From: a virus
Virus record (IMG/VR): IMGVR_UViG_3300037095_000200
Location: 1-38,471 of that record
Length of the DNA: 38,471 nt
Direction: 5' to 3' (one strand)
The notes below the pieces were generated by a model that worked only from the letters and a program-made list of their open reading frames with translations, was not told the origin of the DNA and did no database searches. The position numbers and the translations under genes are program-made. Below, piece by piece: positions 8,662-29,561 of this stretch (the stretch's first letter is position 1; every line of letters begins with the position of its first letter).

Positions 8662-8689
8662 GGACCAGACATCCACACGAGGTTTTATC

Positions 8690-9973: not shown

Positions 9974-10008
9974 CAACTATCAGCTCTCAATTTTCAGCTC
10001 TTAGCTTT
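9974..10008 (+). repeat. degenerate heptad array after the capsid gene
   Basis: Five 7-base units read CAACTAT, CAGCTCT, CAATTTT, CAGCTCT and TAGCTTT. The array lies directly between the capsid stop and a large inverted repeat. Confidence 0.6.
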
Positions 10009-10050
10009 GCTGCCGTGTCAACTATCAACCAATGGTTGACACGGCAGCAA
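10007..10050 (+). terminator. perfect 16-bp inverted repeat after the major capsid gene
   Basis: TTGCTGCCGTGTCAAC (10007-10022) and GTTGACACGGCAGCAA (10035-10050) are exact complements around a 12-base loop. A T-rich stretch (CTTTTTC) follows about ten bases later. This is either a terminator/attenuator that sets the excess of capsid message over connector messages, or a 3' stability element. There is no immediate T tract, so termination is uncertain. Confidence 0.5.
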
Positions 10051-10080
10051 CTCACTTCTCACTTTTTCACTGAGGTTCCC

Positions 10081-10320
10081 ATGAAACTGCAAATTCTCAA
10101 ATCCTTTCGTGTTGCAAATTCGCCGCGGCCGTTTGTCGCCGGCGAACTGGTCGATGTTCCTGAAACCACCGCGAAGCAGTGGATTGCCGATGGCAGCGCG
10201 ATCGAGTTTGCCGGCGGCAACGCCAAAGCCGCGGAAGAGGCCTTTCACCTCGCTTCCAAGCCAGCGGCAGCCGGCAGCGGCCGACAGCGCAATCGCGAGA
10301 AGGCAGTTACCACTTCCTGA
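10081..10320 (+). CDS. small head protein, 79 residues
   Basis: It begins MKLQILKSFRVANSPRPFVAGELVDVPE. The pattern of a hydrophobic strand, RPF-x-AGELVDVPE and AKQWI is typical of short proteins encoded between capsid and connector genes in many siphoviruses, where they may be head-stabilising or neck accessory proteins. GAGG precedes the ATG at 10081; an upstream in-frame start would place the protein inside the inverted repeat and is unlikely. The C-terminal third is low-complexity Ala/Gly/Arg. Function is not established. Confidence 0.7.
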   Translation: MKLQILKSFRVANSPRPFVAGELVDVPETTAKQWIADGSAIEFAGGNAKAAEEAFHLASKPAAAGSGRQRNREKAVTTS

Positions 10321-10346
10321 GCCGTCATGTTTTTGCCTTTGTTTTT

Positions 10347-10381
10347 AACTGACAACTGATCACTGACAGCTGATTACTGTT
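10347..10381 (+). repeat. heptad array upstream of the first connector gene
   Basis: Five units read AACTGAC, AACTGAT, CACTGAC, AGCTGAT and TACTGTT. The array runs directly into the hairpin at 10380-10394. Confidence 0.75.
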
Positions 10382-10394
10382 TCGCGGAGCGAAA
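10380..10394 (+). promoter_or_regulatory. hairpin carrying the Shine-Dalgarno of the connector gene
   Basis: TTTCGC (10380-10385) and GCGAAA (10389-10394) form a perfect stem with loop GGA. The SD (GCGGAG) lies in the loop and stem two bases before the ATG at 10397. Folding would hide the ribosome binding site. The same design recurs at 20345, 22461 and 29545. Confidence 0.65.
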
Positions 10395-10396
10395 CC

Positions 10397-11098
10397 ATGC
10401 CTCTTAATCTGCAACTCATCACGGAGCCTGTGGCCGAGCCGATCACGCTCTATCAGGCCAAGCTGCAATGCGGCTTTGGACCGATGCAAGACACCGATCG
10501 GGCTGCGGAGGAGATCCTTGGCGCGCAACTCCGGCCCTTCATCGTCGCCGCGCGGGCCACGGCAGAGAGTTACATGAACCGGGCCATCTATAACCAGACC
10601 TGGATCAGAACCCTTGATCACTTCCCGCTCTGGTGGGCCGCCAACGGCACTGTCAATCCCAGCTACCGCAAGGATTGGCCCTACTATTCCGATTTCTGGA
10701 ATCGCATCACCATTGACGTTCCCTGGCCGAAGACCAATAGCGTGAAATCGATCACCTACGTCGACCAGAGCAACACGGTGCAAACTCTCGATCCTTCGCA
10801 GTACGACGTCGATCTCACTTCAGAGCCAGCGCGCATTGTGCCCGCGGATGGAACTTACTGGCCCTCTGAGATGACCTACAAACCCGGCTCTGTGGTTGTC
10901 ACCTTCGTTGCCGGCAGCTACGGCGACGGGGTTACGGTGGATACCTGCCCAGAGACCATCAAGGCTGCCATCAAACTCATCCTGGCGCGGCTCTATCAGC
11001 TCGCCAGCCCCGAGCCGCTAGAGCTGGAGCTGATTCCCAAAGCAGCCGTGGCTCTGCTCGACTTCTACGCTATTCACGTTTTCAGCTACCGGCCATGA
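10397..11098 (+). CDS. head-tail connector, phiE125 gp8 / HK97 gp6-like
   Basis: The 233-residue protein opens with LQLITEPVAEPITLYQAKLQ, the usual start of gp6/gp8-type connectors (P-x-T-L-x-E-A-K). Aromatic beta-rich regions and the C-terminal helices (TIKAAIKLILARLYQL) follow. These proteins form the ring that docks under the portal. It is preceded by a heptad array and a hairpin-borne SD. A second connector-like gene follows at 11502, so two related neck proteins flank two tiny genes. The stop overlaps the next ATG. Confidence 0.8.
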   Translation: MPLNLQLITEPVAEPITLYQAKLQCGFGPMQDTDRAAEEILGAQLRPFIVAARATAESYMNRAIYNQTWIRTLDHFPLWWAANGTVNPSYRKDWPYYSDFWNRITIDVPWPKTNSVKSITYVDQSNTVQTLDPSQYDVDLTSEPARIVPADGTYWPSEMTYKPGSVVVTFVAGSYGDGVTVDTCPETIKAAIKLILARLYQLASPEPLELELIPKAAVALLDFYAIHVFSYRP

Positions 11099-11244
11099 GA
11101 GAAACTTTGATCCTAGCCAACATCGCCGTCGGCTGGCGCTTTGCTTACCGTCCACCGCAGGTGATTTATGTTCACAATGCGCGATCAGTCAATGAGGCAG
11201 CCGCATTTTGGGTAGCCCTGGTCGGCCGCCACGCCGCCAATTGA
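11095..11244 (+). CDS. 49-residue hypothetical protein
   Basis: The ATG at 11095 overlaps the connector stop (ATGA). The product reads MRETLILANIAVGWRFAYRP and continues with an Ala-rich stretch. It is coupled to the connector but has no recognised family. It may be a small accessory protein or merely a tolerated frame. Confidence 0.4.
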   Translation: MRETLILANIAVGWRFAYRPPQVIYVHNARSVNEAAAFWVALVGRHAAN

Positions 11245-11256
11245 AATGGAGTTCCC

Positions 11257-11463
11257 ATGAGAAATTGTTGGATTGTAATGCAATATCAGCGTTCGCTCAA
11301 CACTGGAGAGTTTGCTTATCACTTTCAGGGCATATTTAGTTCCGCTGAAAAGGCTGAAGCGGAGTGTAAAACCAATCAGTATTACATCATTCCCGCGACG
11401 ATAGATGAGACGCTTCCGCATGAATCTTTCGTCTGTGACGAGCATTACTTCCCATTGAAGTAG
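11257..11463 (+). CDS. 68-residue hypothetical protein (moron-like)
   Basis: The protein begins MRNCWIVMQYQRSLNTGEFA and contains a short helix (SSAEKAEAECK) between two strand-like parts. Base composition is visibly more AT-rich than that of the flanking connector genes. It sits between two connector genes that are usually adjacent or close in related phages. That suggests a later insertion. No family is recognised. GGAG lies six bases upstream of the start. Confidence 0.6.
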   Translation: MRNCWIVMQYQRSLNTGEFAYHFQGIFSSAEKAEAECKTNQYYIIPATIDETLPHESFVCDEHYFPLK

Positions 11464-11468
11464 CTTCC

Positions 11469-11496
11469 CCTGATCCCTAACCCCTAACCCCTGGAG
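11469..11496 (+). repeat. heptad array upstream of the second connector gene
   Basis: Units read CCTGATC, CCTAACC, CCTAACC and CCTGGAG; the last supplies the SD (GGAG). It is followed at once by the perfect palindrome GATGCCATGGCATC (11496-11509), which contains the ATG at 11502. Confidence 0.75.
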
Positions 11497-11501
11497 ATGC
11501 C

Positions 11502-12206
11502 ATGGCATCGACTGATCTGACCACGCTGGCCACCGCAAAGCTCTGGCTACCCATCACGTCGACCAATACCAATGACGACGCGACCATTTCGCGGCTGATC
11601 ACCGCCTGCAGCCAGGACTTCATGCGCGCCACCAAGCGCCCGGATCTGCTTCAGGCGGATTACTCTGAGGTGCGTCGGGGCGACGGTTCCACCCGCTTTT
11701 CTCTCTATCACTGGCCGATTGTTTCCGTCGCATCGCTGGATATCGCCCCGTCTCCCTATCTGGTTGAGCCCAGCGCTGACAAGATCGCGCCCGGCTGGTA
11801 TATCGACTCGGACATCGACCCGGAGCGCATCTTCAACCTCTGGCTGGCGGGGGGTCTCAAATTTACAGACAATCAGCCGGTCCAGATTAGCTACACCGCC
11901 GGCTACTTGCCGCCCACCTCACCTTATCCGGCCACCGACGGCCAGCTTCTTCTGCCTGAGGACATTGAGCAGGCCATCATCGACTGGATGGCCTACCGCT
12001 ACAACGAGCGCCCCAATATGGGCGCCACGCAGCGCCGTTCCACTGAGGGCGAGAGCGTGCAAGAGCCGCTCGTCGACGCGCCGCCCAACGTACTCTCGGT
12101 TATCAAACGTTACTGCCGCACGCTGCCTTCGCTCGATCGCCGCCAGGATGAGCGCGACCTGCGCATGAGAACCAACTATCAATTCACGGCCGTCAACCGG
12201 CACTAG
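11502..12206 (+). CDS. head-tail connector-like protein
   Basis: The 234-residue protein starts MASTDLTTLATAKLWLPI and contains DDATISRLITACSQDFMRAT, the helical pattern of the gp6/Phage_connect family (D-x-x-I-x-x-L-I-x-x-A-S). A beta-rich middle follows, then VQISYTAGY and PEDIEQAIIDWMAYRYNERP, both common in this family. It is likely a second neck-ring or stopper protein. The start is fixed by the overlapping heptad/SD and the palindrome at the ATG. It ends 119 bases before the glycosyltransferase gene, and that gap holds a structured element. Confidence 0.75.
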   Translation: MASTDLTTLATAKLWLPITSTNTNDDATISRLITACSQDFMRATKRPDLLQADYSEVRRGDGSTRFSLYHWPIVSVASLDIAPSPYLVEPSADKIAPGWYIDSDIDPERIFNLWLAGGLKFTDNQPVQISYTAGYLPPTSPYPATDGQLLLPEDIEQAIIDWMAYRYNERPNMGATQRRSTEGESVQEPLVDAPPNVLSVIKRYCRTLPSLDRRQDERDLRMRTNYQFTAVNRH

Positions 12207-12219
12207 AAAGATTCAAAGT

Positions 12220-12294
12220 TTGAGGCGGTGCATGGCGCCGGAGGAGATCTCCGGATCCCGTTAATCCATCACGGCCTGCAACACGCCGCCTCAA
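12220..12294 (+). ncRNA. structured leader or small RNA before the glycosyltransferase gene
   Basis: TTGAGGCGG (12220-12228) and CCGCCTCAA (12286-12294) close a ~75-base element. Inside, CCGGAG (12239-12244) pairs with CTCCGG (12250-12255). Further pairing possibilities (TGCA/TGCA, GCCG/CGGC) lie between them. It ends about 30 bases before the ATG of the next gene and has no T tract. It may be a cis-regulatory leader or an independent small RNA; I do not recognise a known class. Confidence 0.45.
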
Positions 12295-12325
12295 TTCAAA
12301 TTTGTCAATCTCGGAGATTTTAAGA

Positions 12326-13807
12326 ATGCACTCGATCGCTATCATCGTCCTCAATTACAACACTCCCGATCTGACGCGCAAGCTGGCCCACTGGCTGCGC
12401 ACTGAGCTTGAATATCCCGAGAAAGCTGTTTTCGTCGTCGATAACGGCTCGGTTCCGGAGTACGAGGGTGCGGAGCTGCAACTGCCGCTGAACCTCGGCT
12501 TTACCAAGGGTATGCATGAGGGCTATCAGTTTGCACGCAAATGCGGCAGCTTTGACGCTTTCTGGTTTCTGAACTCTGACATGATCTTTTCGGCGGAGGG
12601 CCGCGATTCGCTCAAAAAGCTGGCCGAGACGCTCTTCTCTGACGAGAGCTTTGCGCAGATCTCGCCGGTGTATAACTCTGACCATCCGCACATGCGTCAG
12701 GCCGCGAGCGCGGCCCAGGTGGTGCCATGGCTGGAGCCAACCTGCACCCTGATCAAGGCTTCGACCATCGAGAAAGTAGGCTTCTGGGATCTCGATTTCA
12801 CCCTCGGCTGGGGCGTGGACTATGACTACGGCTACCGCATTCGCCAGGCAGGGCTGCATTCGGTCCTCACTAATCGCGTCGAGTTGCATCATCTCAGCAA
12901 GGCCTCGCAGACCGATCGCAACGCCTACGGCCGCAACGCACAGTTGGAAATGGATACAGTGATGGCCCGCAAGTACGGCCGCGATTGGATTCGCATCACC
13001 AAAGTCAATCCCAGCCTGATCGTCAGTCCTAACGCGCTAGCCATCTGCGCCATCTTCCGCAATGAGGCTCTCTACCTGCGTGAGTGGGTTGAGTTTCACT
13101 TGATGATGGGGGTAACACGCTTCTTTCTCTATCAAAACCGCTCCACCGACAATTACAAGGCGGTGCTTCGGCCCTATATCGAGCGCGGCCTGGTGGAGCT
13201 CATTGAATGGCCCATGGCCGGCCCAACGCAGATGGCCGCTTACACTGACTGCCTCAGGAAGCACCAAGGGGAGCATCTATGGCTCGCCTTCATTGATATC
13301 GATGAATTTCTTTTCTCGCCGCAGTATTCCACCCTGCCGCCGGCGATGGAGCGTCTCAAGCCGGAGTGGGGCGCGGTGGGAGTCAACTGGGTCTATTTCG
13401 GCGCTTCCGGCCGCGAGGAGTACTCGTCCGAACCGGTGCTTGAACGCTTCACCTGGCGGCTGCCGAATACCAATGACAACGGCCGTCACATCAAGTCGAT
13501 CCTTCGCATGGATAAGCAATGCGTGAGCGGCCAGAATGCGCACTTCTTCAATGTGCAGGGTGGCACCTTCGGCGAGGAGGGCGAGAAGATCACCTCCGCG
13601 CGCACGGTGATCCATCACAGCTCGCTGCTGCGCATCAACCACTACGGCACCAAGAGTCGCCAGGAGTATTACAAGCGCATCGCGCTGGGCCGCGTGGATG
13701 GCCTGGGCGTGGTGTCCAGAACCATGTTTGAAGATCGCCAGGCGCGCGACATCGACGATCGCACCATTCAGCAGTTTCTTCCCGCGCTGAAGGTAAGGCT
13801 CTCATGA
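12326..13807 (+). CDS. two-domain glycosyltransferase (GT2 plus GT92-like)
   Basis: From the ATG at 12326 (SD GGAG ten bases upstream) the protein is 493 residues. Residues 1-~225 form a GT-A family 2 domain: SIAIIVLNYNTPDLTRKL, VVDNGS and the metal-binding region FLNSDM at 81-86. From about residue 236 a second GT domain of the GT92/DUF23 kind begins: AICAIFRNEALYLREWVEFH, GVTRFFLYQN and FIDIDEF with its DxD motif. Such proteins transfer sugars to acceptors. Here it may glycosylate virion proteins or the host surface. It lies between connector and neck genes, where no glycosyltransferase is normally required, and its stop overlaps the next gene start. Confidence 0.85.
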   Translation: MHSIAIIVLNYNTPDLTRKLAHWLRTELEYPEKAVFVVDNGSVPEYEGAELQLPLNLGFTKGMHEGYQFARKCGSFDAFWFLNSDMIFSAEGRDSLKKLAETLFSDESFAQISPVYNSDHPHMRQAASAAQVVPWLEPTCTLIKASTIEKVGFWDLDFTLGWGVDYDYGYRIRQAGLHSVLTNRVELHHLSKASQTDRNAYGRNAQLEMDTVMARKYGRDWIRITKVNPSLIVSPNALAICAIFRNEALYLREWVEFHLMMGVTRFFLYQNRSTDNYKAVLRPYIERGLVELIEWPMAGPTQMAAYTDCLRKHQGEHLWLAFIDIDEFLFSPQYSTLPPAMERLKPEWGAVGVNWVYFGASGREEYSSEPVLERFTWRLPNTNDNGRHIKSILRMDKQCVSGQNAHFFNVQGGTFGEEGEKITSARTVIHHSSLLRINHYGTKSRQEYYKRIALGRVDGLGVVSRTMFEDRQARDIDDRTIQQFLPALKVRLS

Positions 13808-14954: not shown

Positions 14955-14973
14955 CCGCAGGGCTCGGGTTTTT

Positions 14974-15008
14974 CTAACCCCTAACCCCTAACCCCTAACC
15001 CCTGAAAG
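14974..15008 (+). repeat. heptad array before the major tail gene
   Basis: Four exact CTAACCC units are followed by CTGAAAG. The array merges into a perfect hairpin at 15004-15024. Confidence 0.85.
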
Positions 15009-15024
15009 CGGCTGCGCCGCTTTC
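15004..15024 (+). promoter_or_regulatory. perfect hairpin in the major tail gene leader
   Basis: GAAAGCGGC (15004-15012) and GCCGCTTTC (15016-15024) form a nine-pair stem with loop TGC. It follows the heptad array, but lies 37 bases upstream of the ATG, so it does not cover the SD. It may be a terminator or a transcript-stability element. Confidence 0.5.
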
Positions 15025-15061
15025 CTAACTTGTGCGCTCAATCAGCGCCGAAGGAGCTACC

Positions 15062-15826: not shown

Positions 15827-15832
15827 ACTGCT

Positions 15833-15860
15833 TTCGCAGCCTGTGGTAACAGGCTGCGAA
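15833..15860 (+). terminator. 12-bp inverted repeat after the major tail gene
   Basis: TTCGCAGCCTGT (15833-15844) and ACAGGCTGCGAA (15849-15860) are exact complements around GGTA. It starts seven bases after the stop. No T tract follows, so it may be an attenuator or a 3' stability stem. Confidence 0.5.
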
Positions 15861-15998
15861 GGGGCGCGGGCCTTCCATCCCGTTCCTCCGGCCGGAGCGT
15901 GTCCCGAGCGCGCTTCGGCCTGCCCAATCAGCTCAGGAAAACGTCACTCTTGAGGGAAAGAGGTCGCGAGAATTGCCAGAGCGTCTTCCACTGCGCTG

Positions 15999-16034
15999 TC
16001 ATCCTGAACGGAGCGCAGCGCAGTCGAAGGATCC
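15999..16034 (+). repeat. REP-like spacer repeat
   Basis: The stretch begins GTCATCCTGAACGGAGCG and ends GTCGAAGGATCC, with complementary ends (GGATCC/ATCCTGA type). It resembles spacer repeats I associate with bacterial chromosomes, not phages. Its 19-base core (16013-16031) occurs inverted inside a gene at 37841-37859. The surrounding 15861-16047 shows no gene. Confidence 0.5.
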
Positions 16035-16047
16035 GCGTTTGCTTTTT

Positions 16048-16075
16048 CCTAACCCCTAACCCCTAATCCCTGTTC
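16048..16075 (+). repeat. heptad array before the tail chaperone gene
   Basis: Units read CCTAACC, CCTAACC, CCTAATC and CCTGTTC. The SD (TTTGGAG) follows a few bases later. Confidence 0.8.
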
Positions 16076-16088
16076 TTTGGAGTAACCC

Positions 16089-16792: not shown

Positions 16793-16821
16793 GCTAGAAT
16801 GCTGTCGTGGGGGAGTACCGC

Positions 16822-17612: not shown

Positions 17613-17637
17613 TCTAACCGAACAGGTAACTGCAAAG

Positions 17638-17658
17638 CCCCGCCCCGGCGGGGTTTTT
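17638..17658 (+). terminator. intrinsic terminator after the exported-protein cassette
   Basis: CCCCGC (17638-17643) pairs with GCGGGG (17648-17653), with a four-base loop, and TTTTT (17654-17658) follows directly. It stands 18 bases before the tape-measure ATG. It ends the accessory cassette but would also cut tape-measure transcription unless antitermination or a downstream start occurs. Confidence 0.85.
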
Positions 17659-17675
17659 CTATTGGAGAAAACATC

Positions 17676-20306
17676 ATGGCTGAAGATGCTGTAGTTCGAA
17701 TTGGCGCAGTCTTTGACAAGACTAATGTCGAAGAGGGCATCACCAGTACGACGGAACTGATCAATAAGTCCAATCAGAGCATATCGCCCATCGTTGAGGA
17801 GACCAGCGCCCGGACTACGTCTGCATACATGAATATGAGCGCGGCGGCAAAAGAACTTGCCAACAATGTCAGCGCCAGCGCAATCAGGCAAGCTGAGGCC
17901 ATGAAGGGGATCGTCGTCGCCCAGGCGGATGTGCGCCGGTCCTGGGTGCTTGTCAAAGATGCCAGCTTGCCTGCTGAAGAGAGCATTCGCCGTCTGGCGG
18001 CTTCGCAGCAGCTTCTGACTGCTGCCCAGGCTGAAGGAGCTGCCGCCGTCAAGGCAGCCGCCGCCGAGATGGCCGCCAGCGCGCCGCCGGTAGCCGCTGC
18101 GTGGACCGTCGCTGGAGCGGAGGTTAAAGCGGCGCTCACAGGCATGCAGGCGAAGTTCGCTGCTACCGCCGAGACTTCAAAGATCAGCGCTGCCGGCATC
18201 GGTGCTGGGTTTGCCGGCCTCAGTTCGCTGATGGGAGCGGGCATCTTGGCCGGCTTCGCAGCCCACTTCATTGACGATGCGGTGAAGGTGAATGTTGAAC
18301 TGGGCCATATGGCCGAAGAGACAGGATTCACCTTTGAACGCATGGCCGGGTTACGGCAGATGGCGAAGGAGTTGGGGATGGACCTTGACACACTCGCCAG
18401 GTCTCTCTTTCATATGAACGCTGTGCAGTACGAGGCGAACCATGGCAGCGATAAGCTGAAGCAAGCTTTTCTCGATCTCGATGTTACTGAAGAACAGTTG
18501 AAAAACGACTCGCCGGAGGAGATGCTGCAGCATCTTGCTATCGGGATGCAAAAGTATGCTGGTTCGACGATGGAGGCCAATGCGGTTCGGGAGATATTCT
18601 CGCGCGGCGGCGTCAAGTTGATCCCCCTTCTGGAAGCGGAAGGAGCTAATCTTCTGCGCGATGCGGATGCTGCGGGGAAGAAGACCGGTGCGGATAAGGA
18701 GGCGAACGCGGCCTCGCTGGAATGGACGAAAAACCTTGCGCAGCTCTCCGGGGAACTGATGGCGCTCGGTAACGCGATTATTGAAAATCTTCATTACGTT
18801 GAAGCATTTGGTGCTGCCATTGGGTCGTATCTCAACGTGGCTTTTCAGGCTGTATACGCTTCGATCAAGGAGACAATTCAAGCGCTTAAGGGACTTGGCC
18901 AGCTAATGATTGACGCGGTCACTGGCCACTGGCGCGATATGCCGAAAGATTGGCAAGCAGCCAATGATGCGATGGTTGCGACAACCGGTAAGGCACTCGA
19001 TGACATAAAAGCCCGCTGGAAAGAGGTGGACGATTTAGCAAAGGGGCCCTTGAAGTCGGATGGAAATGCCCCTAAACCTTCCCATGGCGGCAAGAAGGAT
19101 GAAAACCCTGAGGCTGCTGGCGCGGCTGGCGGCGGCAAAGGTGGCACACAGGCGGCCGGGCCGGAAATCCAGACCCTCGCGGCAACGAGTGTCTTGGATC
19201 AAAATCAAGACAAGGGCCTCGCGCAGACGGTGTGGGATGTGCAAGCCGCCAAAGGGGCGCAGGCGCAGATTGCCGCGTTTTTCAAGGATTACAACAAGGC
19301 GGCTGCCGATGCCGCCAAGCGCGCCGTTGAGTCGGAACGCTCAGCCGCCGAAGAGAAGATTCGCATCGGCCTCAAAGATCTGGAGGACTTCGAGGAGGAC
19401 TGCCGTTTCAAGGTCCGCATGGGTGAGATGAGCGAGCGGCAGATGCTGGCCGCCGTCGAAGCCGCTGCGAAAAAGGAAGAGCAGATCCGCCGCCAGCAAT
19501 CTACGGTCATCGAAGGCCTCGATCGCAACAACGAAAAGCGCTTCGCCGAAGATCTGAAAAAAGAAGAGCAGGACACGCGCGAATTTACCAAGCACATCAC
19601 CCAACTGCATCAGCAGGCGGCGCTGAAAATCAAAACCGAGTGGGATAAGGCGACGAAACAGTTCAATACGGCTTTTACCACCGCCTTCAACCAGATCATC
19701 ACCCAGTCGAAGTCCGTCTCGCAGGCTTTTTCGGAGATGTTCAACAAGATCATTCTCGACGTGGCCGACATGGTTGTGCAGTGGCTGCTGAAGGAAGCGG
19801 AAAAATGGGCCCTCCTGAAGATCATGCAGGTGATGGGGTTCACTACTCAGAAAACCACAGAGGGCGCGGCCAATGCCGCGTCGGCGACCAGCTATGCCGC
19901 CGTGGCTGCCGCGGCAGCCGCATCTACGGTCGCCGGGGTGCCTATCATTGGACCGGCACTCGCGGTGGCTGCGGCTGGTGCGATGATGGCTTCGATGGCG
20001 CCTTATATTGCCATCGCTGCGCTGGGCGATTCAGGCGGCATGATTCCCCACGGCGGCATGATGGTCAATCTCTCCGGAGCGGCAGAGCGCACTCTCGATC
20101 CGCGTCAGACGGCTAATTTCGACAAGATGGTCAGCAACAACAGCTCCAGCTCCAGCTCCAGTTCCGCGAATACGACTCATAACCACATCACCCAAAACCT
20201 CAACGGCTACGACCGCGCCGGCATGAAAGCCGCTCTCCGCGGCCACGCCGATGAGATCCTCGACATCGTCCGCGGCGGCTACCGCAGCGGCGCATTGACC
20301 GCATAA
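17676..20306 (+). CDS. tape measure protein
   Basis: The 876-residue protein is almost wholly helical and Ala-rich, the longest gene after the hub protein, and lies directly after the chaperone and accessory genes. It has hydrophobic stretches at about residues 170-205 (GIGAGFAGLSSLMGAGILAG) and 735-790. Long charged coiled coils (about 545-665) lie in between, and a Ser-rich run near 815-828 precedes a short C-terminal domain. The protein sets tail length and is ejected into the host envelope. By the rule of thumb of about 0.15 nm per residue, the tail would be roughly 130 nm. SD TTGGAG lies upstream. Confidence 0.85.
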   Translation: MAEDAVVRIGAVFDKTNVEEGITSTTELINKSNQSISPIVEETSARTTSAYMNMSAAAKELANNVSASAIRQAEAMKGIVVAQADVRRSWVLVKDASLPAEESIRRLAASQQLLTAAQAEGAAAVKAAAAEMAASAPPVAAAWTVAGAEVKAALTGMQAKFAATAETSKISAAGIGAGFAGLSSLMGAGILAGFAAHFIDDAVKVNVELGHMAEETGFTFERMAGLRQMAKELGMDLDTLARSLFHMNAVQYEANHGSDKLKQAFLDLDVTEEQLKNDSPEEMLQHLAIGMQKYAGSTMEANAVREIFSRGGVKLIPLLEAEGANLLRDADAAGKKTGADKEANAASLEWTKNLAQLSGELMALGNAIIENLHYVEAFGAAIGSYLNVAFQAVYASIKETIQALKGLGQLMIDAVTGHWRDMPKDWQAANDAMVATTGKALDDIKARWKEVDDLAKGPLKSDGNAPKPSHGGKKDENPEAAGAAGGGKGGTQAAGPEIQTLAATSVLDQNQDKGLAQTVWDVQAAKGAQAQIAAFFKDYNKAAADAAKRAVESERSAAEEKIRIGLKDLEDFEEDCRFKVRMGEMSERQMLAAVEAAAKKEEQIRRQQSTVIEGLDRNNEKRFAEDLKKEEQDTREFTKHITQLHQQAALKIKTEWDKATKQFNTAFTTAFNQIITQSKSVSQAFSEMFNKIILDVADMVVQWLLKEAEKWALLKIMQVMGFTTQKTTEGAANAASATSYAAVAAAAAASTVAGVPIIGPALAVAAAGAMMASMAPYIAIAALGDSGGMIPHGGMMVNLSGAAERTLDPRQTANFDKMVSNNSSSSSSSSANTTHNHITQNLNGYDRAGMKAALRGHADEILDIVRGGYRSGALTA

Positions 20307-20313
20307 GCGGTTC

Positions 20314-20348
20314 CTAACCCCTAATCCCTAACCCCTAATCCCTATTTT
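20314..20348 (+). repeat. heptad array before the DUF2460-like gene
   Basis: Units read CCTAACC, CCTAATC, CCTAACC and CCTAATC, then CTATTTT. It abuts the hairpin at 20345-20361. Confidence 0.85.
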
Positions 20349-20361
20349 CGCGGAGCGAAAA
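20345..20361 (+). promoter_or_regulatory. hairpin carrying the Shine-Dalgarno and the first base of the start codon
   Basis: TTTTCGC (20345-20351) and GCGAAAA (20355-20361) form a perfect seven-pair stem with loop GGA. The final A is the first base of the ATG at 20361. Folding would block initiation of the DUF2460-like gene. Confidence 0.65.
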
Positions 20362-21125
20362 TGCTCGTTTACCCCACACTCCCGGGCCTCACCCTGCCGG
20401 TGCTCAAGACGGTGGACTTCGACACCCTCGTCGAGTCCGCACCGAACAAGTACGACGTGCGCCTGCCGCAGACGGTGAATCCGATCTGGGGATGGGAACT
20501 GATCTACGACTTTCTCCGCGACTATCCCACGCCCAGCTTCGGTATCGGCGAGCTGCACACCCTACTCGACTTCTTTCTGGCCATGGGGGGCGCGGCGCAG
20601 TCCTTCCTTTTCCTCGATCCCGATGACAACTCCGTCGGCCCGGCGATGGTTGATGGCGAGCCCAATGTTCCGCTGGCGCAGTTGCAACTCGTCACCGATG
20701 GAACCAACTACTATTCGCCGCTGCAGCGCACCTTCGGCGGCCTCTTCTACGAAGACATTGTCGATCTCAATACCGATCCCTACGCCGACGGCCAGCCGTT
20801 GGAGGTCTATTCCGACGGCGTGCAGGCATGGCCCACTGGCGCTGCGCCCGGCGGCTACACCGGTCCGACCTACGAGCTCCTGGGTCCCGGTCTGGCCATT
20901 CCCGGTGCATCCTACATGGGCATGTATCTCGAATGGTCCGCGCAGCCCACCGCGCCGATTACCGCGCAGTTCAGCTTTTATTTTCGCTGCCATTTCGAAA
21001 GCGACTCTCAAGACATGGAAAAGTTCGCCATGGGCGCAAAGCGTACCTGGACCATCGGCGGCAGCGAATCGCAAAACGGCAAGGGCTATCTCAAGCTGAG
21101 CCAGGTCAGGCCAAATCCGCTGTAA
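20361..21125 (+). CDS. distal tail protein, DUF2460-like
   Basis: The 254-residue protein contains the DUF2460 pattern: an N-terminal strand region, then WELIYDFLRD followed by LLDFFLAMGGAAQSFLFLDPDD, and a C-terminal FRCHFESDSQDMEKF. In the Rhodobacter gene transfer agent the DUF2460 protein (gp12) forms the distal end of the tail tube and joins the hub. It follows the tape measure, as expected. Its start is enclosed by a hairpin after a heptad array. A gene for a LuxR-type protein separates it from the DUF2163-like gene, which is unusual. Confidence 0.75.
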   Translation: MLVYPTLPGLTLPVLKTVDFDTLVESAPNKYDVRLPQTVNPIWGWELIYDFLRDYPTPSFGIGELHTLLDFFLAMGGAAQSFLFLDPDDNSVGPAMVDGEPNVPLAQLQLVTDGTNYYSPLQRTFGGLFYEDIVDLNTDPYADGQPLEVYSDGVQAWPTGAAPGGYTGPTYELLGPGLAIPGASYMGMYLEWSAQPTAPITAQFSFYFRCHFESDSQDMEKFAMGAKRTWTIGGSESQNGKGYLKLSQVRPNPL

Positions 21126-21156
21126 GACAGCGATCGTGGATTAGGGGTGCGGCAAA

Positions 21157-21501
21157 ATGAGCGTTGCTTCGACAATTGAATGTCCGCACTGCGGCCATCG
21201 TTCTGAGCTGTCGGTGACGGTGCAGGATGCTATGCCAGACACAGGGCTGGAGGCGCCAGACAAGACAGGTATCTGCGTTCTGAACGCGCTGACATGGCGG
21301 GAAAGAGAAGTGTTGTATGCGCTCTCGCTGGGGGCGACCAATAAGGAACTGGCCCGCATTCTGAACATCTCGAAAGAGACTGTGACCAGGCACCTGAACA
21401 AAATCTATGAAAAGACGGGCATGGGCAATCGACTCGAAGCGGTGTTGTTTATGCAGCAGCACGAAGTGCTGGCCGCAGGATGCAAGGCGGCAGCGAAATG
21501 A
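21157..21501 (+). CDS. LuxR-type helix-turn-helix regulator
   Basis: The 114-residue protein has a short CPHCGHRS knuckle at 9-16 and a complete LuxR/GerE DNA-binding domain at about 44-100: LTWREREVLYALSLGATNKE and ISKETVTRHLNKIYEKTG. There is no receiver or ligand-binding domain. It should bind DNA and may control phage or host genes. Its place between two tail genes, with the stop overlapping the next ATG, means it is expressed late with the tail operon. It is probably an inserted accessory gene. The SD is weak. Confidence 0.8.
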   Translation: MSVASTIECPHCGHRSELSVTVQDAMPDTGLEAPDKTGICVLNALTWREREVLYALSLGATNKELARILNISKETVTRHLNKIYEKTGMGNRLEAVLFMQQHEVLAAGCKAAAK

Positions 21502-22424: not shown

Positions 22425-22430
22425 GTCAGT

Positions 22431-22465
22431 CTGACCCCTGATCCCTGAAACCTGATCCCTGTTTT
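22431..22465 (+). repeat. heptad array before the NlpC/P60 gene
   Basis: Units read CTGACCC, CTGATCC, CTGAAAC, CTGATCC and CTGTTTT. It leads into the hairpin at 22461-22477. Confidence 0.8.
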
Positions 22466-22477
22466 CCAAAGGAAAAC
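22461..22477 (+). promoter_or_regulatory. hairpin carrying the Shine-Dalgarno of the NlpC/P60 gene
   Basis: GTTTTCC (22461-22467) and GGAAAAC (22471-22477) form a perfect stem with loop AAA. The SD (AAAGGA) spans loop and stem, and the ATG follows one base later at 22479. The stem sequence differs from the other three hairpins while the design is the same. Confidence 0.65.
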
Positions 22478-22478
22478 A

Positions 22479-22991: not shown

Positions 22992-25900
22992 GTCTCAGGC
23001 TTCCAATAAGCCCACCGCTCTGGGTTCGCTGCTGCAGGCCTCCACCTACGGCGCGACCATTCCGGCGATCTATGGGCTGACGCAATCTCCACTGCTGGCC
23101 ATCTGGGCGGCCAACATGCGCCAGGGCGGCTCGGGCAAGAAAGGCAAAAGCGGGAAAAAGGGCGTTGTAGCCTACGTCGAAAACATCGACTTCCTGCTGG
23201 GTCATAATCCTATCCGCGGCGTGCTCCAGGTGGTAGTCAACGGCACGAATTTCCCGCTCAACTTCACCTCACAGAGCTTCTCCGCAGCCGCCGGCCGCCA
23301 AAGTCTCGAAGTCTCCGATGCGCATTTCTACGCTGTGATTGCCGTTACCGTTGAGGGCGGCTACAGTTTTCCAGTCAACGATTACGGCTCCAACGGCTAT
23401 GCGGAGACGCTGAACGGCAGCTTCGAGATTCCGCTGTGGAACGAGTTGGAGCAGGGGCCCGACCCCACCAACCCCTCCTGTTATCGCAACTGGCCTTATT
23501 GCTATCGCTGGCAGCCGGGCTATGGAGCCACCATCGAGATCGACGCCGAGGCCTTCCCTGGCGGCACGGTGAAGATCTACTACGCGCAGCTCGCCAATAC
23601 GGCTGCCGGGATGCCGATCGCCGGCTACCAGTCTCCCATGGCGGAACTGCGGATGGTCTTCGAGCCGGAACTGGGCTCAGGCACCGAGTATGCCGACGCG
23701 GGCAACGATCCGGCCGGCCATCCCTACAGCGACCAGCAGATCGAATATCCGCACTTCGCCGGTGCGGGCAGCTCCATGATGGATCTTGGCTCTTCGGGCG
23801 CGTTGCCTCAGCTACAGCCGGAGGTAGCCGGCAAGTGGGGCATCTATCCCACCGGCGACGCAGATTTCGTCGACATGATAGAGGACATCTTTAAGTCCGG
23901 CCTCGCGCAGGCAGCCGTGGGCACGGATACTCCGTGGACACAGATGGAGCGCGGCCTCTCCAGCTACGCCATGCCGGGTACGATCCAAAAAAAGTACGAC
24001 CAGAGCACGTCGGCCGCGCTGCCGCCCATGCTCTATAACCTGCCCAATGTGGCGGGTAACATTCTTGTCTGCGTGGCCCAGGCGGGTGGCGCGCTCTCCA
24101 TCTCTTCGAGCGCGGGCGATGTTTGGACGTCGCAGCTCTCCGGGGTCACCGGCTACCAGGTATGGACGGCGACGGCGGTGGGCGGTCCGAACACGGTCAC
24201 CATCTCCGGAGCATCCGGCGCGTGGCAGATGCACGTTTTGGAAGTCGGCGGCGTGGGAAGCCTGGACTCGGCCGGAGTCTTCAATCCCGGCACTGGCAGC
24301 GCCGGTGGCTTGATCAGTAAGCAGGGCAATGGCCCGGTAATCGGCGGCGCAGGCGCTGTTGTTTCAATGTTATTTGCAGACTTTGAGCTTTCCGCCCCGC
24401 TTCCTTCCGACGCAGTTATCCAAGGCATCTACCCAGTCTTTGTAGGCACTGGCACGGTGGAGAATGCGGGCTTTCTCAGTTATCAATACGGTTCCGCGCT
24501 TGTGCTGGACGACTTGGGCGGATTTGTGGATGGCTCCAACTTTACCGCTCCGGTGCCACCGGTCTCCGGCTCATCGGGAGAGTTCTACGCTCCAAGTATC
24601 GGAACCAGCCTCTCGGATCTGATCGGCCAGGCAATCGGCGCCAGTATTGCTTGTACGGTCGATCAAGGCTTGATGCCCATCGGCACTGCCAGCTTTAGCG
24701 CTGTCGGCTTCGCTATATACTTCACAACTTCAGCATCGCCAACCGGCGCGCCACCGATTCCGCCTCCCTTCACCGTGCCCGCGGGCCAGCAAGTGGCCTG
24801 GGCGCTTCCGCGTGATGCTAGCGCGGCCGCTGTTCAGCCATGGACCAACGTGCTGGAAGTAGTTGATGGCATCGCGGTAGTTTACCATGCGAACTGCGCA
24901 CTGGCGCTGGCTGGGGCATCCTCCGGCAATTCCGCCACGGTTGGTTCCCTCACCGGCGGCTCTTTCGATACAGGCGCGCCGGGCGGCATCGTTGTAGCCT
25001 CCGCCATCTCCGGTTCAACCATCGCCAGCACCGTCGAGCCAGGTTTCCCCGGCCTGCTGATGGCTGTGCCGATGTATCCCACCAGCGATGCTCCGGCTGG
25101 CCAGCAGATTGCCGCCTGGGGATCACTCACGCCCCCGAACTTTGCCGGGCTCTCGCCTGACTCCTATCAGCTCCTCAGCCGCATCGTTCGTTCGCCGGGA
25201 ACCTACACCTTCCCCACGCTTGAGCCGTCGCCCGCGCAATTGCTGCTGCTCAGCTTCAAGTCCACCCAGCCCGCGCCCTATCCGCGCCCACTGGGCGATT
25301 ACATCGATTTTCCCTCGCTTGATCTAGTCCGTGCACAATGCCGCGCCAATGGTCTCTATGGCTCGCTGAGCATGAACTCGCAGTCCGCGGCATCGGATTG
25401 GATCACGTCGCTCTGCCAGGCCGCCAACTGCGCTGCGGTGCCCATCGGTTCCAAGCTCTACTTCTTCCCTTATTCCGAAGTCTCCGCGGCCGGCAACGGC
25501 GCGGAGTATACCGCGGCCACCGCCGCCGGGCCTGTGGCCAATCTGAGCACCATCAATGGCGATTTCGTAGGCAGCAGCGGAACACCTGATTTCCAATCCG
25601 GCAGCCGCATCCGGCTTCCCAATGTGCTGCAGATGCAGTGCCTTGATCGCAGCGCTTTCTATAACCAGATCGTTGTGCAGCAGCCAGACGCGGCCTCCAT
25701 CGCGCTCTATGGCGTGCGCAAGGGCGATCCAGTGGTCAACAACGCCGTTCAGGATCCTTCCATTGCCAGAGCTTTGTTGGCCATTCAAGTGCGGCGCAAT
25801 CAGTATGGCGGCGATACTTGGAAGTTCACCGCCAGCGCCAAGTGGTTGCTCCAGACGCCGATGGACCTGATCACCCTGACCGACGATTTGCAGGACATTT

Positions 25901-26814
25901 TGAACGTGCCGGTGCGCATCACCGAGTTCAACGAGCAGGACGATGGCAGTTTTGAGGGCGCGGCGGAGCCCTTCGTTTACGGCATGTGCGCGCCCACGCC
26001 GCTGGCGGCCGGTTCGCCCACGCAAAACTCCACCGGCGTCAACGCCTCGGCCGGAAACGTGAATCTGCCCATTATTTTTGAGCCGGTTCCGCGCCTCTAC
26101 GCCAACGCGCCCCAGGCGCAGCTCTGGGTGGTGGTCAGCTCCAAGGCCGCGAACTATGGCGGCTGCGTGGTCCTTATCTCCACCGACGGCGGCAGCAGCT
26201 ACGATCCGCTGGGCGATCCGATCATCGGCTCGGCGATTACCGGCGAGGTTACCGCCGACTGGCCCGCGGATACCAGCCTCGACACTGCCAACGATCTAGC
26301 GCTCGACTTGACAGAATCGGACGGCATCTTGCAAAGCTACGCCGTGAGCCAGGAGGATAACTTTGCTTATCCCTGCTACGTCAGTGGCTCGAATCTGACC
26401 ATCGAGTCGAACGGCACGGCGGTTTGCGACAGTGGCATCGATTATGAGTCGAACGGTGCATTGATTGCTGAATCTTCCATGGCCTTCGGCTACGAGCTGA
26501 TGACCTACGCCACCGCGCAGTTGACGGGGCCCAACAAGTTCACCCTCAGGGCTACCGGCAGCGGCAACCATCTCGACCGCGCGGTCTTTGGTGCACCGGG
26601 ATCGAGCGGCATCGATCACTCGCCCGGCTCGCGCTTTGCCTTCCTCTCGCCCGCTGGCACCGGCATTCTCAAGATCAGCATGGACGAGGTTTGGGTGGGC
26701 GTCGAACTCTTCTTCAAAGTCATCAGCTTCAATTCTTTCGGCGCGGCGATCCAGTCGCTCGCCGATGTGTCCGCAACCAGCTACACGCCCACCGGCGTTC
26801 CCGGCGGCATTTAA
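22978..26814 (+). CDS. large tail hub / host-specificity protein
   Basis: The 1278-residue protein begins with SNKPTALGSLLQASTYGATIPAIYGLTQ, the N-terminus found on many phage hub proteins and GTA-type tail proteins. A Lys/Gly-rich loop (about 42-58) follows. A middle region (about residues 340-620) contains a beta-sandwich-like insert (NVAGNILVCVAQAGGALSIS, GYQVWTATAVGG), a motif that also occurs in the fibre gene. The C-terminal part has several beta domains of fibronectin-like aspect. It is expected to form the tail tip and contact the receptor. It overlaps the peptidase gene. Confidence 0.8.
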   Translation: MQGFKSQASNKPTALGSLLQASTYGATIPAIYGLTQSPLLAIWAANMRQGGSGKKGKSGKKGVVAYVENIDFLLGHNPIRGVLQVVVNGTNFPLNFTSQSFSAAAGRQSLEVSDAHFYAVIAVTVEGGYSFPVNDYGSNGYAETLNGSFEIPLWNELEQGPDPTNPSCYRNWPYCYRWQPGYGATIEIDAEAFPGGTVKIYYAQLANTAAGMPIAGYQSPMAELRMVFEPELGSGTEYADAGNDPAGHPYSDQQIEYPHFAGAGSSMMDLGSSGALPQLQPEVAGKWGIYPTGDADFVDMIEDIFKSGLAQAAVGTDTPWTQMERGLSSYAMPGTIQKKYDQSTSAALPPMLYNLPNVAGNILVCVAQAGGALSISSSAGDVWTSQLSGVTGYQVWTATAVGGPNTVTISGASGAWQMHVLEVGGVGSLDSAGVFNPGTGSAGGLISKQGNGPVIGGAGAVVSMLFADFELSAPLPSDAVIQGIYPVFVGTGTVENAGFLSYQYGSALVLDDLGGFVDGSNFTAPVPPVSGSSGEFYAPSIGTSLSDLIGQAIGASIACTVDQGLMPIGTASFSAVGFAIYFTTSASPTGAPPIPPPFTVPAGQQVAWALPRDASAAAVQPWTNVLEVVDGIAVVYHANCALALAGASSGNSATVGSLTGGSFDTGAPGGIVVASAISGSTIASTVEPGFPGLLMAVPMYPTSDAPAGQQIAAWGSLTPPNFAGLSPDSYQLLSRIVRSPGTYTFPTLEPSPAQLLLLSFKSTQPAPYPRPLGDYIDFPSLDLVRAQCRANGLYGSLSMNSQSAASDWITSLCQAANCAAVPIGSKLYFFPYSEVSAAGNGAEYTAATAAGPVANLSTINGDFVGSSGTPDFQSGSRIRLPNVLQMQCLDRSAFYNQIVVQQPDAASIALYGVRKGDPVVNNAVQDPSIARALLAIQVRRNQYGGDTWKFTASAKWLLQTPMDLITLTDDLQDILNVPVRITEFNEQDDGSFEGAAEPFVYGMCAPTPLAAGSPTQNSTGVNASAGNVNLPIIFEPVPRLYANAPQAQLWVVVSSKAANYGGCVVLISTDGGSSYDPLGDPIIGSAITGEVTADWPADTSLDTANDLALDLTESDGILQSYAVSQEDNFAYPCYVSGSNLTIESNGTAVCDSGIDYESNGALIAESSMAFGYELMTYATAQLTGPNKFTLRATGSGNHLDRAVFGAPGSSGIDHSPGSRFAFLSPAGTGILKISMDEVWVGVELFFKVISFNSFGAAIQSLADVSATSYTPTGVPGGI

Positions 26815-26830
26815 TCTCAGGAGAATCCCC

Positions 26831-28837
26831 ATGGCTTTAGCGACCACGCTCAACTTTTCAAATACCACGCCCACCCCGCCCACCGAGCAGCAGAACATCG
26901 AATGGCAGAACGATGGTGGTACGCCCGTCTGCAACGAGAGCGCTTATGATCCGGTGATGGTGGGCGATAACGGCAGCTCGGGTGGCGGCCTGGCGGGCAA
27001 TGTTCCCGCGCCTCCGGCTGGGTCTGCGGTTGCAGGCAAGTTCCTCAAAGCGGATGGCACCTGGGAAATACCACCGGGCGGCTCATCCCCTGAGATGATC
27101 GGCGATACGGGCGGCAGTGGGGGCGGCGAGGGGGGGGTTGTGCCCGCGCCGCCGGCTGGTTCGGCGGCGGCTGGAAAGTTTTTGAAGGCCGATGCTACCT
27201 GGGAGGTTCCTTCGGGCGGCTCGGGCGGCTTACCCACAGGATCCGGCAATGAGGTTGTAGCCACGCCTGCCGATGGATCGAGCGCGCCGGCCGCACTGCG
27301 CGCACTGGTTCCTGCAGATCTTCCGGTGGCCACCACTGGCGCCCTGGGCGTGGTCAAGCCCGACGGCAGCACGATCACTATCTCTGGCGGCGTGATCTCA
27401 GCAGCGGGCGGCGGCGGCAGCTCCGCAGGCGTCATTCATACCGGCATCGGCGCGCCGACGCCGGGCACACCAGCAACCGTCGCGCACGTGCAGAGCGCAA
27501 CCTCTCCCAATAGTGGCACGCAGGCCTTTGGCTCGAATGTAACAGCGGGAAACCTGCTGCTGGTCTTACAGGTTGGCGAAGCAGGCATGGCGGACAATCT
27601 TCCGCCAACTGACACAGTTGGAACGGTTTACAAGCTGGCTCAATACCTTGCCGCAGCTTCGACAATCTGCGCGGCGGTCTGGTATGGAGTTGCCCCTGCC
27701 AGTGGCGCGAATACTGTGAACTGGGATATTTCCGGCATAACCAACCCGGCCACGTCAGTCTCTGAGTTCTCGGGCGCCGCGGCGCTGGTTGATGGGCTTG
27801 GAACTCCGGTCTACAACGGCGCATCTCCAGTGAGCACCACGGTTGCCGCCACGCTGGCCGGCGACCTGATCCTTGGGTACCTGGCTCTCTTGTGGGGCAA
27901 TGGCATTGGGGTAACCTATACTGCCGGAACCGGCTTCACGCTGGCGACGAGTTCGGCGGGTGGAGCCCTAGAGAATCCCCTGGCGGCTGAGTATGATCTC
28001 GCCGGGACACTGGGCGCAAATACGGTGGCCTCTTCCTTTACTGTGAATACGGGTGACCGCAGCTGTTTCAGTGCCATCGCCTTCTATGCCAAGCAGACCG
28101 GCACGCCGGGCAGCGATGGCGACTTCTACCTCAATACCAGCACCGGCATCCTCTACGGCCCGCGTGTCGGTGGCGTTTACGTGCCGGCAGCGCTTCCGCC
28201 AACATTGGTGGGCGATAGCGGTTCCGGCGGCGTGGCCGGCATCGTTCCGGCGCCTCCTGCTGGCGCGGCGGCGGCGGGCAAATATCTCAAGGCCGATGGC
28301 ACTTTTCAGACGCCTCCTTCCGCGGCGCCCGGCGCCATGATCCAGATCGCCAAGGTAACTGTCGGTTCCGGCGGCCAAGCTTCGATCGATTTCTCCTCGA
28401 TTCCCAATACCTATTCCCACCTCATGCTGATCCTGAGCGGTCGCGGTGTCTCCGTATCGATTGATTATGCAAAACTGACCTTTAACGGGGATGCCGGCTC
28501 TAACTATAATTGGGGTGTTCTTTATCCGAGCCCAAGTTCCGGCCCCGGCGACTATTCCACAAATGCACAAACGGCAATTCAGGCCGGCACGATCAACGAC
28601 AACAGCGCCGCGCCCCGGGCCGCGCTGATCAAGGCGCTCATCGCCAACTACGCGAATACCGGCTTTTACAAGACAGTGTTCATCGACAATGCTTTCGGTG
28701 GAGCCTTGATGGCGACTGGGCAAATTGCGGCCGGCGAGTGGATGTCCGTGGCGGCAATCAATGAGATCACGCTCACGCCCAGCAGCGGGCTCAACTTCGC
28801 GGAGGGCACAGTCGCCACGCTGTACGGAATAGAGTAA
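26831..28837 (+). CDS. tail fibre with repeated collagen-like linker modules
   Basis: From the ATG at 26831 (AGGAG upstream) the protein is 668 residues. A repeated unit, GDxGxGG...G-x-VPAPPAG-x-AAAGKFLKADG-T-W-x-x-P, occurs at nt 26960-27079, 27098-27214 and 28208-28320. Two beta-sandwich-like domains separate them (AGNLLLVLQVG..., AGDLILGYLALLWG...). A C-terminal jelly-roll-like domain (SIPNTYSHLMLILSGRG) resembles receptor-binding ends. It is the last tail gene, 24 bases before the converging accessory genes. Confidence 0.8.
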   Translation: MALATTLNFSNTTPTPPTEQQNIEWQNDGGTPVCNESAYDPVMVGDNGSSGGGLAGNVPAPPAGSAVAGKFLKADGTWEIPPGGSSPEMIGDTGGSGGGEGGVVPAPPAGSAAAGKFLKADATWEVPSGGSGGLPTGSGNEVVATPADGSSAPAALRALVPADLPVATTGALGVVKPDGSTITISGGVISAAGGGGSSAGVIHTGIGAPTPGTPATVAHVQSATSPNSGTQAFGSNVTAGNLLLVLQVGEAGMADNLPPTDTVGTVYKLAQYLAAASTICAAVWYGVAPASGANTVNWDISGITNPATSVSEFSGAAALVDGLGTPVYNGASPVSTTVAATLAGDLILGYLALLWGNGIGVTYTAGTGFTLATSSAGGALENPLAAEYDLAGTLGANTVASSFTVNTGDRSCFSAIAFYAKQTGTPGSDGDFYLNTSTGILYGPRVGGVYVPAALPPTLVGDSGSGGVAGIVPAPPAGAAAAGKYLKADGTFQTPPSAAPGAMIQIAKVTVGSGGQASIDFSSIPNTYSHLMLILSGRGVSVSIDYAKLTFNGDAGSNYNWGVLYPSPSSGPGDYSTNAQTAIQAGTINDNSAAPRAALIKALIANYANTGFYKTVFIDNAFGGALMATGQIAAGEWMSVAAINEITLTPSSGLNFAEGTVATLYGIE

Positions 28838-28861
28838 GCGGTCTTAGCGTCCAGCGATCGG

Positions 28862-28960
28862 CTAGGGCGCAGGCACAAAGCAAGCGATGGCGATGAGTGC
28901 GGCGATGAGCAGCAGCCATGCAAACATGAGTGCGCGCGGACTATGGTAAGGCTCAGGCAT
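28862..28960 (-). CDS. 32-residue single-membrane-helix protein
   Basis: On the minus strand the frame reads MPEPYHSPRALMFAWLLLIA and continues ALIAIACFVPAP. AAGGAG lies six bases before the ATG and overlaps the end of the upstream minus-strand gene. It is a short hydrophobic protein with one helix. The good SD and coupling to its neighbour support expression. Function is unknown; small phage membrane peptides can affect membrane potential or block superinfection. Confidence 0.55.
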   Translation of the reverse strand: MPEPYHSPRALMFAWLLLIAALIAIACFVPAP

Positions 28961-28971
28961 GGGATTCTCCT

Positions 28972-29493
28972 TTAGTGCGGACCGTGGGCCGCGCAGAACT
29001 GCTCTACAAAATCCATCTCCGCGGGCTTAAAGGTGTCATGGAACTTTCCGCGGGAATCTTCGCGGACGCCATCGATCGTATAGGTTGGCGGCGCGTTGGG
29101 AGGGAATGCGACGGCTAAGTCGGGATCGTTTAAGCCATCGGTGGCATGGGGGTCGGCGGTGTAGTAAAGCGTCGATCCTTTTCTGGTGCGCGCCGCGCCG
29201 CAGCGAGCGATAAATTTTTCCGGCGTATCGAGCTTGCCACCGGCCAGGTCGGAGTGCAGCGCGGCGGTGAACTCCTGCTGTTTCTTTTCTTGGATGGGTC
29301 CTTCGATGGCATTGACGATCCAGATTCCAAAAGCAAAAACCGCGGCGACGCCTAGGGCTACAGGCCAGTTAGGTTTGGGGGGCTGAACCACGCGCGCCGC
29401 CTGGGCGACGAGCGGCAGCCCGCAGCCGGGGCAAACCTGCGCGCCGGGCGTCAGGATGGTGCGGCAAATCGAACATGCAATGATAGCTGGCAT
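28972..29493 (-). CDS. zinc-ribbon membrane protein
   Basis: The start at 29493 has AAGGAG upstream and gives 173 residues. The N-terminus is a zinc ribbon, MPAIIACSICRTILTPGAQV and CPGCGLP (two CxxC pairs). A transmembrane segment follows (WPVALGVAAVFAFGIWIVNAI, about 48-68), then an external domain with a conserved Cys and repeated Asp/Pro. Zinc-ribbon plus single helix proteins are common in host genomes but their function is poorly known. It lies on the strand opposite to the late genes, next to the repressor-like gene, so it may be expressed in the prophage. Confidence 0.7.
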   Translation of the reverse strand: MPAIIACSICRTILTPGAQVCPGCGLPLVAQAARVVQPPKPNWPVALGVAAVFAFGIWIVNAIEGPIQEKKQQEFTAALHSDLAGGKLDTPEKFIARCGAARTRKGSTLYYTADPHATDGLNDPDLAVAFPPNAPPTYTIDGVREDSRGKFHDTFKPAEMDFVEQFCAAHGPH

Positions 29494-29513
29494 CGAATTC
29501 TCCTTTGCTTTTT

Positions 29514-29548
29514 CCTGATCCCTAATCCCTGACCCCTGACCCCTGTTC
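29514..29548 (+). repeat. heptad array in the divergent 29494-29562 gap
   Basis: Units read CCTGATC, CCTAATC, CCTGACC, CCTGACC and CCTGTTC. It leads into the hairpin at 29545-29561. Confidence 0.8.
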
Positions 29549-29561
29549 GCCGGAGGCGAAC
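29545..29561 (+). promoter_or_regulatory. hairpin carrying the Shine-Dalgarno of the 94-residue gene
   Basis: GTTCGCC (29545-29551) and GGCGAAC (29555-29561) form a perfect seven-pair stem with loop GGA. The SD GGAGG lies in loop and stem, and the ATG is at 29563. Confidence 0.65.

Follow-up and report, generated by a model that had tools for sequence, protein, structure and literature searches.

Direct heptamer repeats of the TAACTGA type are known from Cand. Maribeggiatoa, Cyanobacteria and Bacteroidetes, where a translational role has been proposed for them and where their stop codons in the sense direction were noted (MacGregor, 2015; PMC4679880). Cluster K mycobacteriophages carry start-associated sequences (SAS) and extended start-associated sequences (ESAS) (Pope, 2011; PMC3203893). 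At the ribosome-binding site (RBS), single-stranded upstream stretches act as standby sites (for example PMC3936740, PMC7708055). The present analysis concerns the virus record IMGVR_UViG_3300037095_000200, analysed over its whole length of 38,471 bp (the window), in which heptad arrays run directly into hairpins that include the Shine-Dalgarno (SD) sequence at gene starts. The record is a temperate tailed phage and kin to an Acidobacteriaceae prophage. The structure and recurrence of this array-hairpin element are well supported; attenuation, standby use and stoichiometry control are the roles that we infer for it.

Anatomy and statistics of the array-hairpin starts

The four array-hairpin-ATG sites listed in a preliminary description of the window are all present, with perfect stems and three-base loops, although the stems are slightly longer (7-8 bp) than the 6-7 bp given there (Table 1). 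Each hairpin is flush with its array, and the ATG lies one base away, adjoins the hairpin or is overlapped by it. The SD had been placed in the three-base loop throughout. This holds for the starts at 10397, 20361 and 29563, where the loop is the GGA of the SD and the next G is paired, but not for 22479, where the loop is AAA and the SD lies inside the stem. Predicted hairpin energies at these four sites range from -7.2 to -10.0 kcal/mol, and the predicted stem pair probability in a 160-nt context is about 0.84-1.0. Two of the four arrays are predicted to be nearly unpaired (mean pairing 0.06 and 0.17). With a minimum stem of 7 bp, the window contains nine triloop hairpins, where 3.3 would be expected and no more than 8 arose in any of 60 first-order simulations; four of these hairpins are placed between an array and an ATG. 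No Rfam family matched the window above its gathering score.

Table 1. Positions of array-hairpin starts, array-only starts and other annotated features in the window
Feature	Position	Strand	Details
Heptad array	10346..10378	+	AACTGAC / AACTGAT / CACTGAC type, ends in ACTG
7-bp hairpin	10379..10395	+	GTTTCGC-GGA-GCGAAAC; SD GGAG with GGA as triloop; ATG 10397
Heptad array	20313..20343	+	CCTAACC/CCTAATC
8-bp hairpin	20344..20362	+	ATTTTCGC-GGA-GCGAAAAT; covers first two bases of ATG 20361
54-nt unit, apparently inserted	22425..22478	+	between TGA and ATG 22479
Heptad array	22431..22459	+	CTGACCC/CTGATCC/CTGAAAC
8-bp hairpin	22460..22478	+	TGTTTTCC-AAA-GGAAAACA; SD GGA in 3′ arm; ATG 22479
Heptad array	29514..29544	+	CCTGATC/CCTAATC/CCTGACC
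7-bp hairpin	29545..29561	+	GTTCGCC-GGA-GGCGAAC; ATG 29563
Array without SD hairpin	11467..11495	+	array-only version; ends in plain GGAG SD; before ATG 11502
Array without hairpin	16048..16071	+	array-only version; before SD GGAG, ATG 16089
Terminase large subunit	4176-5861		
Portal (putative)	5869-7596		by position
Major head protein	8657-9970		
Head-tail adaptor	start ATG 10397		phrog_442
Second head-tail adaptor	start ATG 11502		
Tape measure	17676-20306		tail genes also present
Integrase	30165-31322		

Pairing between the arms was assessed at sites defined without regard to pairing; kinship among the phages is only partly removed from the pairing, coupling and covariation tests. At least six of seven pairs formed around GGA at 22 of 54 sites, against 5.0 when the arms were re-dealt (maximum 13 in 10,000). 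In a larger pool, the same threshold was reached at 15 of 83 sites with sense arrays, against 2.9 expected (maximum 10 in 20,000), at 0 of 21 antisense arrays and at 1.5% of 11,897 array-free sites. Hairpins that overlap the SD and have 6 bp or more were found at 15 of 82 sense-array starts, 0 of 15 antisense-array starts and 68 of 4675 array-free starts (odds ratio 15). Loci from a biased scan for GTTTBCGGAGVAAAC...ATG were omitted from the 83-site and 82-start tests, which still include full records reached via such loci (L231-L235), but were kept in the 54-site test. In a stricter set that omits the window's own virus, the records reached via the biased scan (L231-L235) and duplicates, an SD hairpin is present at 8/68 array starts vs 65/4277 array-free starts (odds ratio 8.6, p 1.4e-5). 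Stop codons in all three frames are found in 72% of sense arrays against 3% of array-free starts. In the biased scan itself, the three array sites all pair, whereas array-free sites pair at about chance level, and a hairpin independent of the array was accordingly rejected as a separate element.

The arms also covary, which bears out the earlier remark that pairing is kept while the stem sequence differs. In a set of 22 distinct elements, some of them unpaired, pairs form in 84% of cells and five of the seven pairs change on both sides, with 20 double-change cells against 8.5 when shuffled and a score of 0.446 against 0.224 (0/500); all slid registers score far lower. The element set (A1) was hand-picked from array sites ending in CTRTT, with unpaired ones included. 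U-G or G-U pairs occur at several stem positions. The defining property of an RBS-occluding translational hairpin, a stable SD-including stem with covarying arms, is therefore found here.

Recurrence in phages and distribution in host genomes

A scan of 2.9 million viral contigs used the pattern CCCTRAYCCCTRTTN{1,9}GGAG, in which the opening bases of the 5′ arm and GGAG are set and neither the 3′ arm nor the start codon is specified. It returned about two dozen distinct sites; counts from two further scans of the collection are lower bounds. Most of the sites with true arrays have an ATG 4-11 nt past GGAG, and most of these form a hairpin, with differing stems that include GTTTTCC-GGA-GGAAAAC, GTTCGCC-GGA-GGCGAAC, GTTTTGC-GGA-GCAAAAC and TGTTTTTCC-GGA-GGAAAAACA. 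The array units vary (CCCTGAT, CCCTAAC, AACTGAC, AGCTGAT, CCACTGA), while the junction CTGTT or CTATT recurs. The suggestion of one recurring element used on unlinked genes was thus upheld: the same design, with different covarying stems, precedes unrelated genes in other phage records, at least about ten in number, and these genes include capsid (L224), maturation protease (L227), minor head protein (L226) and genes of unknown function. Full records of four phages (L221, L223, L226, L230) have two to five array-hairpin starts each. The carriers are soil phages of Acidobacteria-like hosts, in which the element is real and recurrent. In a separate large phage, with a record of 132,674 bp (G432; L241-L247), CTRA heptad arrays reach a density of about 47 per 100 kb; many of them precede starts, and an SD hairpin is almost always missing.

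Six phages have the element at the start of the head-tail adaptor: the window, L223, L225, L230, L234 and L261. Their adaptors share 26-45% identity except within the L223/L225/L230 group (60-85%). In the order given, the stems are GTTTCGC, GTTTCGC with one mismatch, GTTTGC with a G-U pair, GTTTTGC, GTTTGC and GCTCC-GAA-GGAGC; the loop is GGA at five of these starts and GAA in L261. The capsid gene lies upstream of the adaptor, at about 0.4 kb in the window and 0.9-1.3 kb in L223, L225 and L230. This frequent use at the adaptor, downstream of capsid in one operon, suggests dosage control.

Orthologous junctions show both change and gain of the element. At ATG 20361, the window and its relative L054 (64% protein identity) both carry CCCTATTTT-type hairpins, and between the two a C-G pair is replaced by T-A, a compensating change (TTTTCGC/GCGAAAA vs TTTTTGC/GCAAAAG); in more distant relatives the genes at this junction overlap or nearly abut. 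The junction before ATG 22479 spans 54 nt in the window, -8 to +1 nt in the nearest relatives and up to 47 array-free nt in others. Since the genes of the nearest relatives abut or overlap here, the whole unit was probably gained in the window's lineage, which is the simplest reading of the compared junctions. This apparent insertion as a whole also suits the other option of the preliminary description, a dispersed repeat bearing a hairpin at the start site. In the relative L236 (same contig as L041), the array itself supplies the TGA stop of the upstream adaptor gene.

The closest genome match to the window is a prophage-like locus (L015) in an uncultured Acidobacteriaceae contig, with 88% terminase identity, so the host family is likely to be Acidobacteriaceae. 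Heptad arrays are common in this family: 41 of 150 genomes match one array pattern, and two genome samples of about 0.39 Mb each contain 26 and 27 arrays. Only four arrays in these two samples precede a start in the sense direction, none with a hairpin. An array-SD pattern matched 0 of 297 genomes of the phylum, with the window as positive control. A hairpin-family pattern matched 4 of 398 family genomes, a chance-level result with no match palindromic or at a start, the other stem families not having been searched in hosts. Exact TTTCGCGGAGCGAAA occurs in 6 of 150 genomes, never at a start and once after a diverged array. The proposed search of Acidobacteriota genomes therefore yielded abundant arrays but, with the patterns tried, no array-hairpin start, and for this reason the compound unit is read as a phage feature. 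Within the genomes and patterns tried (297 phylum and 398 family genomes) it is one, and an origin of the hairpin unit in host chromosomes is disfavoured; the true host genus may lie outside the sample.

Possible function and alternative explanations

We give about even weight to the view that the element is a phage-borne, two-module stop-standby-restart RBS cassette in the 5′ untranslated region, whose hairpin holds down initiation at genes of the late operon. The first module would be the sense-oriented array of NNCTRAN units. It could end translation in every frame, since the repeat length of 7 is not divisible by 3 and three units give TGA or TAA in all three frames, and could also serve as an open landing stretch for standby, because a C/A/U-rich array tends to stay single-stranded. 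The second module would be a hairpin of 6-9 bp with the SD at its centre, usually with a GGA triloop, directly after the last CTGTT or CTATT and one to several bases before the ATG. If part of the SD lies in a stem, that stem has to open before the anti-SD can pair fully, so this hairpin is expected to attenuate initiation. Ribosomes from upstream would be released at the array and a 30S ribosomal subunit would wait on it; the hairpin would restrict 30S entry, and initiation would depend on ribosomes delivered from upstream or on the waiting 30S. The unit is placed before single late structural genes, most often the head-tail adaptor, of which few copies would be needed beside the abundant capsid protein. 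Its purpose is probably to reset translation and limit the output of the next protein. More tentatively, and with clearly less confidence than in the cassette as such, it may be transferable, moving as a unit into stop/start junctions, uncoupling neighbours and setting the protein ratio of the late operon, with stem strength tuned per gene.

Several observations weigh against this cassette model. Hairpins are absent from 67 of the 82 sense-array starts, and among close relatives the element is lost or exchanged at one and the same gene. The upstream gene has in most cases already ended where the array begins, so that the all-frame stop seldom serves as a gene's actual stop. At 10397 and 22479, predicted pairing in the array (0.54 and 0.37) is not clearly below that of the flanks (0.50 and 0.56). 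In L224 the hairpin precedes the major capsid gene, which fits poorly with a role restricted to low-copy proteins, although the SD there lies fully in a six-base loop.

Some of these features could potentially be explained by mutation, if arrays or their T-rich ends drive template-switch copying of the RBS into a functionless palindrome. The palindromes are perfect, arrays grow and shrink by slippage, T-runs and A-runs agree in length (T3/A3, T4/A4, T5/A5) and arrays without a hairpin are frequent. Nevertheless, the hairpins remain flush with the SD, phages that are about 30% identical carry different stems at their orthologous adaptor starts, the change at 20361 is compensating between orthologues, and no hairpin is found at antisense arrays or at the few array starts of the two host samples; we consider such a by-product unlikely. 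A dispersed selfish heptad repeat merely lying in intergenic gaps, with the SD hairpin incidental, would account for like arrays in host-family chromosomes (41/150 genomes) and for the array-only majority of starts. It is quite unlikely given that hairpins are 8-15 times as frequent as at array-free starts and that arm covariation is significant.

Two further explanations invoke a binding protein. Inverted repeats at gene starts are typical of operators, and the ESAS of cluster K phages have been read in this way (PMC3203893), but a DNA palindrome bound by a phage regulator, in place of an RNA hairpin, is very improbable here: the stem sequence varies freely with pairing kept, and a sequence-specific dimer would not tolerate such varied stems or the U-G and G-U pairs. 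The GGA loop could also be a binding site for a host translational repressor of the CsrA/RsmE type, as CsrA sites classically present GGA in a loop at the SD. This seems the most improbable of all, since CsrA (PF02599) was found in 0 of 60 host-family genomes while control genomes were positive, the triloops are closed by C-G or U-G and lack the usual A-N-GGA context, and one site has an AAA loop.

Neighbouring features and comparison with known systems

The sites at 11469-11509 and 14974-15024, previously taken as variants of the element, were rejected as such and are arrays with other neighbours. At the former, the array is followed by a plain SD, and the 14-bp palindrome over ATG 11502 yields just a 5-bp stem with the SD outside its loop. 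At the latter, the array precedes a 9-bp hairpin (GAAAGCGGC-TGC-GCCGCTTTC; 15004-15024) located about 37 nt upstream of the likely start, ATG 15062, which has its own GGAG; the hairpin is flush with neither the SD nor the start. A relative keeps this hairpin with an altered sequence (GGAAGCGGCTTAAGCCGCTTTCC), and the window site is a homologue of L043/L044. Heptad arrays in the opposite orientation, with repeats that carry few stops, are found at 32733-32762, 37562-37586 and 38085-38115, and at least the first is read as repeats in the protein of an open reading frame (ORF).

Elsewhere in the window, an ORF at 12302-13807 within the structural module appears glycosyltransferase-like and has no PHROG match, and a small helix-turn-helix or sigma-like ORF (21157-21501) is located between tail genes. 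A terminator-like GC hairpin at 17640-17676 has a T-run that pairs with the next RBS (TTTTCTATTGGAGAAAA, 6 bp), and relatives retain such a hairpin and T-run directly before the same start. Hairpins of 8-10 bp cluster at 37041-37150 in a 22-bp tandem repeat (CTGTCGCTCTGAGCGTACAGAA). The repeat CATCCTGA(A/G)CGNAGCG..GTCGAAGGA is present at 15990-16040, before the adaptor start in L041 and at places in Acidobacteriaceae genomes (L070-L072), and is thus a host-type repeat borne by phages.

Heptamer repeats at starts have been noted for years without a mechanism. This phage group offers dozens of natural variants that join the repeat to an SD hairpin with covarying arms; they occur at one gene across distant phages and at several genes within a single phage, so that a role in stop, standby, insulation or dosage is directly testable with short synthetic leaders. 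They suggest a compact part for setting gene ratios within operons. A literature search that does not cover most subscription journals found no report of such arrays for Acidobacteria or for the phages that infect them.

With the TAACTGA repeats, the phage element shares direct 7-nt arrays, mostly sense-oriented, with sense stops and ending a few nt before starts (PMC4679880). Those repeats usually have no SD and no predicted structure, and no hairpin element, phages or Acidobacteria were described with them, whereas the units here are CCCTRAY, AACTGAC, AGCTGAT and others, with an SD and often a hairpin. Like SAS, the element is a repeated phage sequence with an SD just before the starts of varied gene families, and both are essentially absent from host genomes and often have an extra upstream repeat module (PMC3203893). 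SAS, however, are one conserved 13-bp sequence (GGGATAGGAGCCC) at non-structural genes, and the ESAS inverted repeats do not support RNA pairing; the sequences here are GTTTTGCGGAGCAAAAC and variants, keep their pairing and precede mainly structural genes. An SD hairpin with an upstream single-stranded stretch is also described for the RNA phage coat start and tisB (PMC3936740, PMC7708055), as gene-specific structures, while the phage element recurs, is joined to a heptad array and appears to be a transferable cassette. By analogy, it may work like an RBS-occluding hairpin with a standby site, and it departs from the TAACTGA repeats in its units and its structure and from SAS in having no fixed 13-bp sequence.

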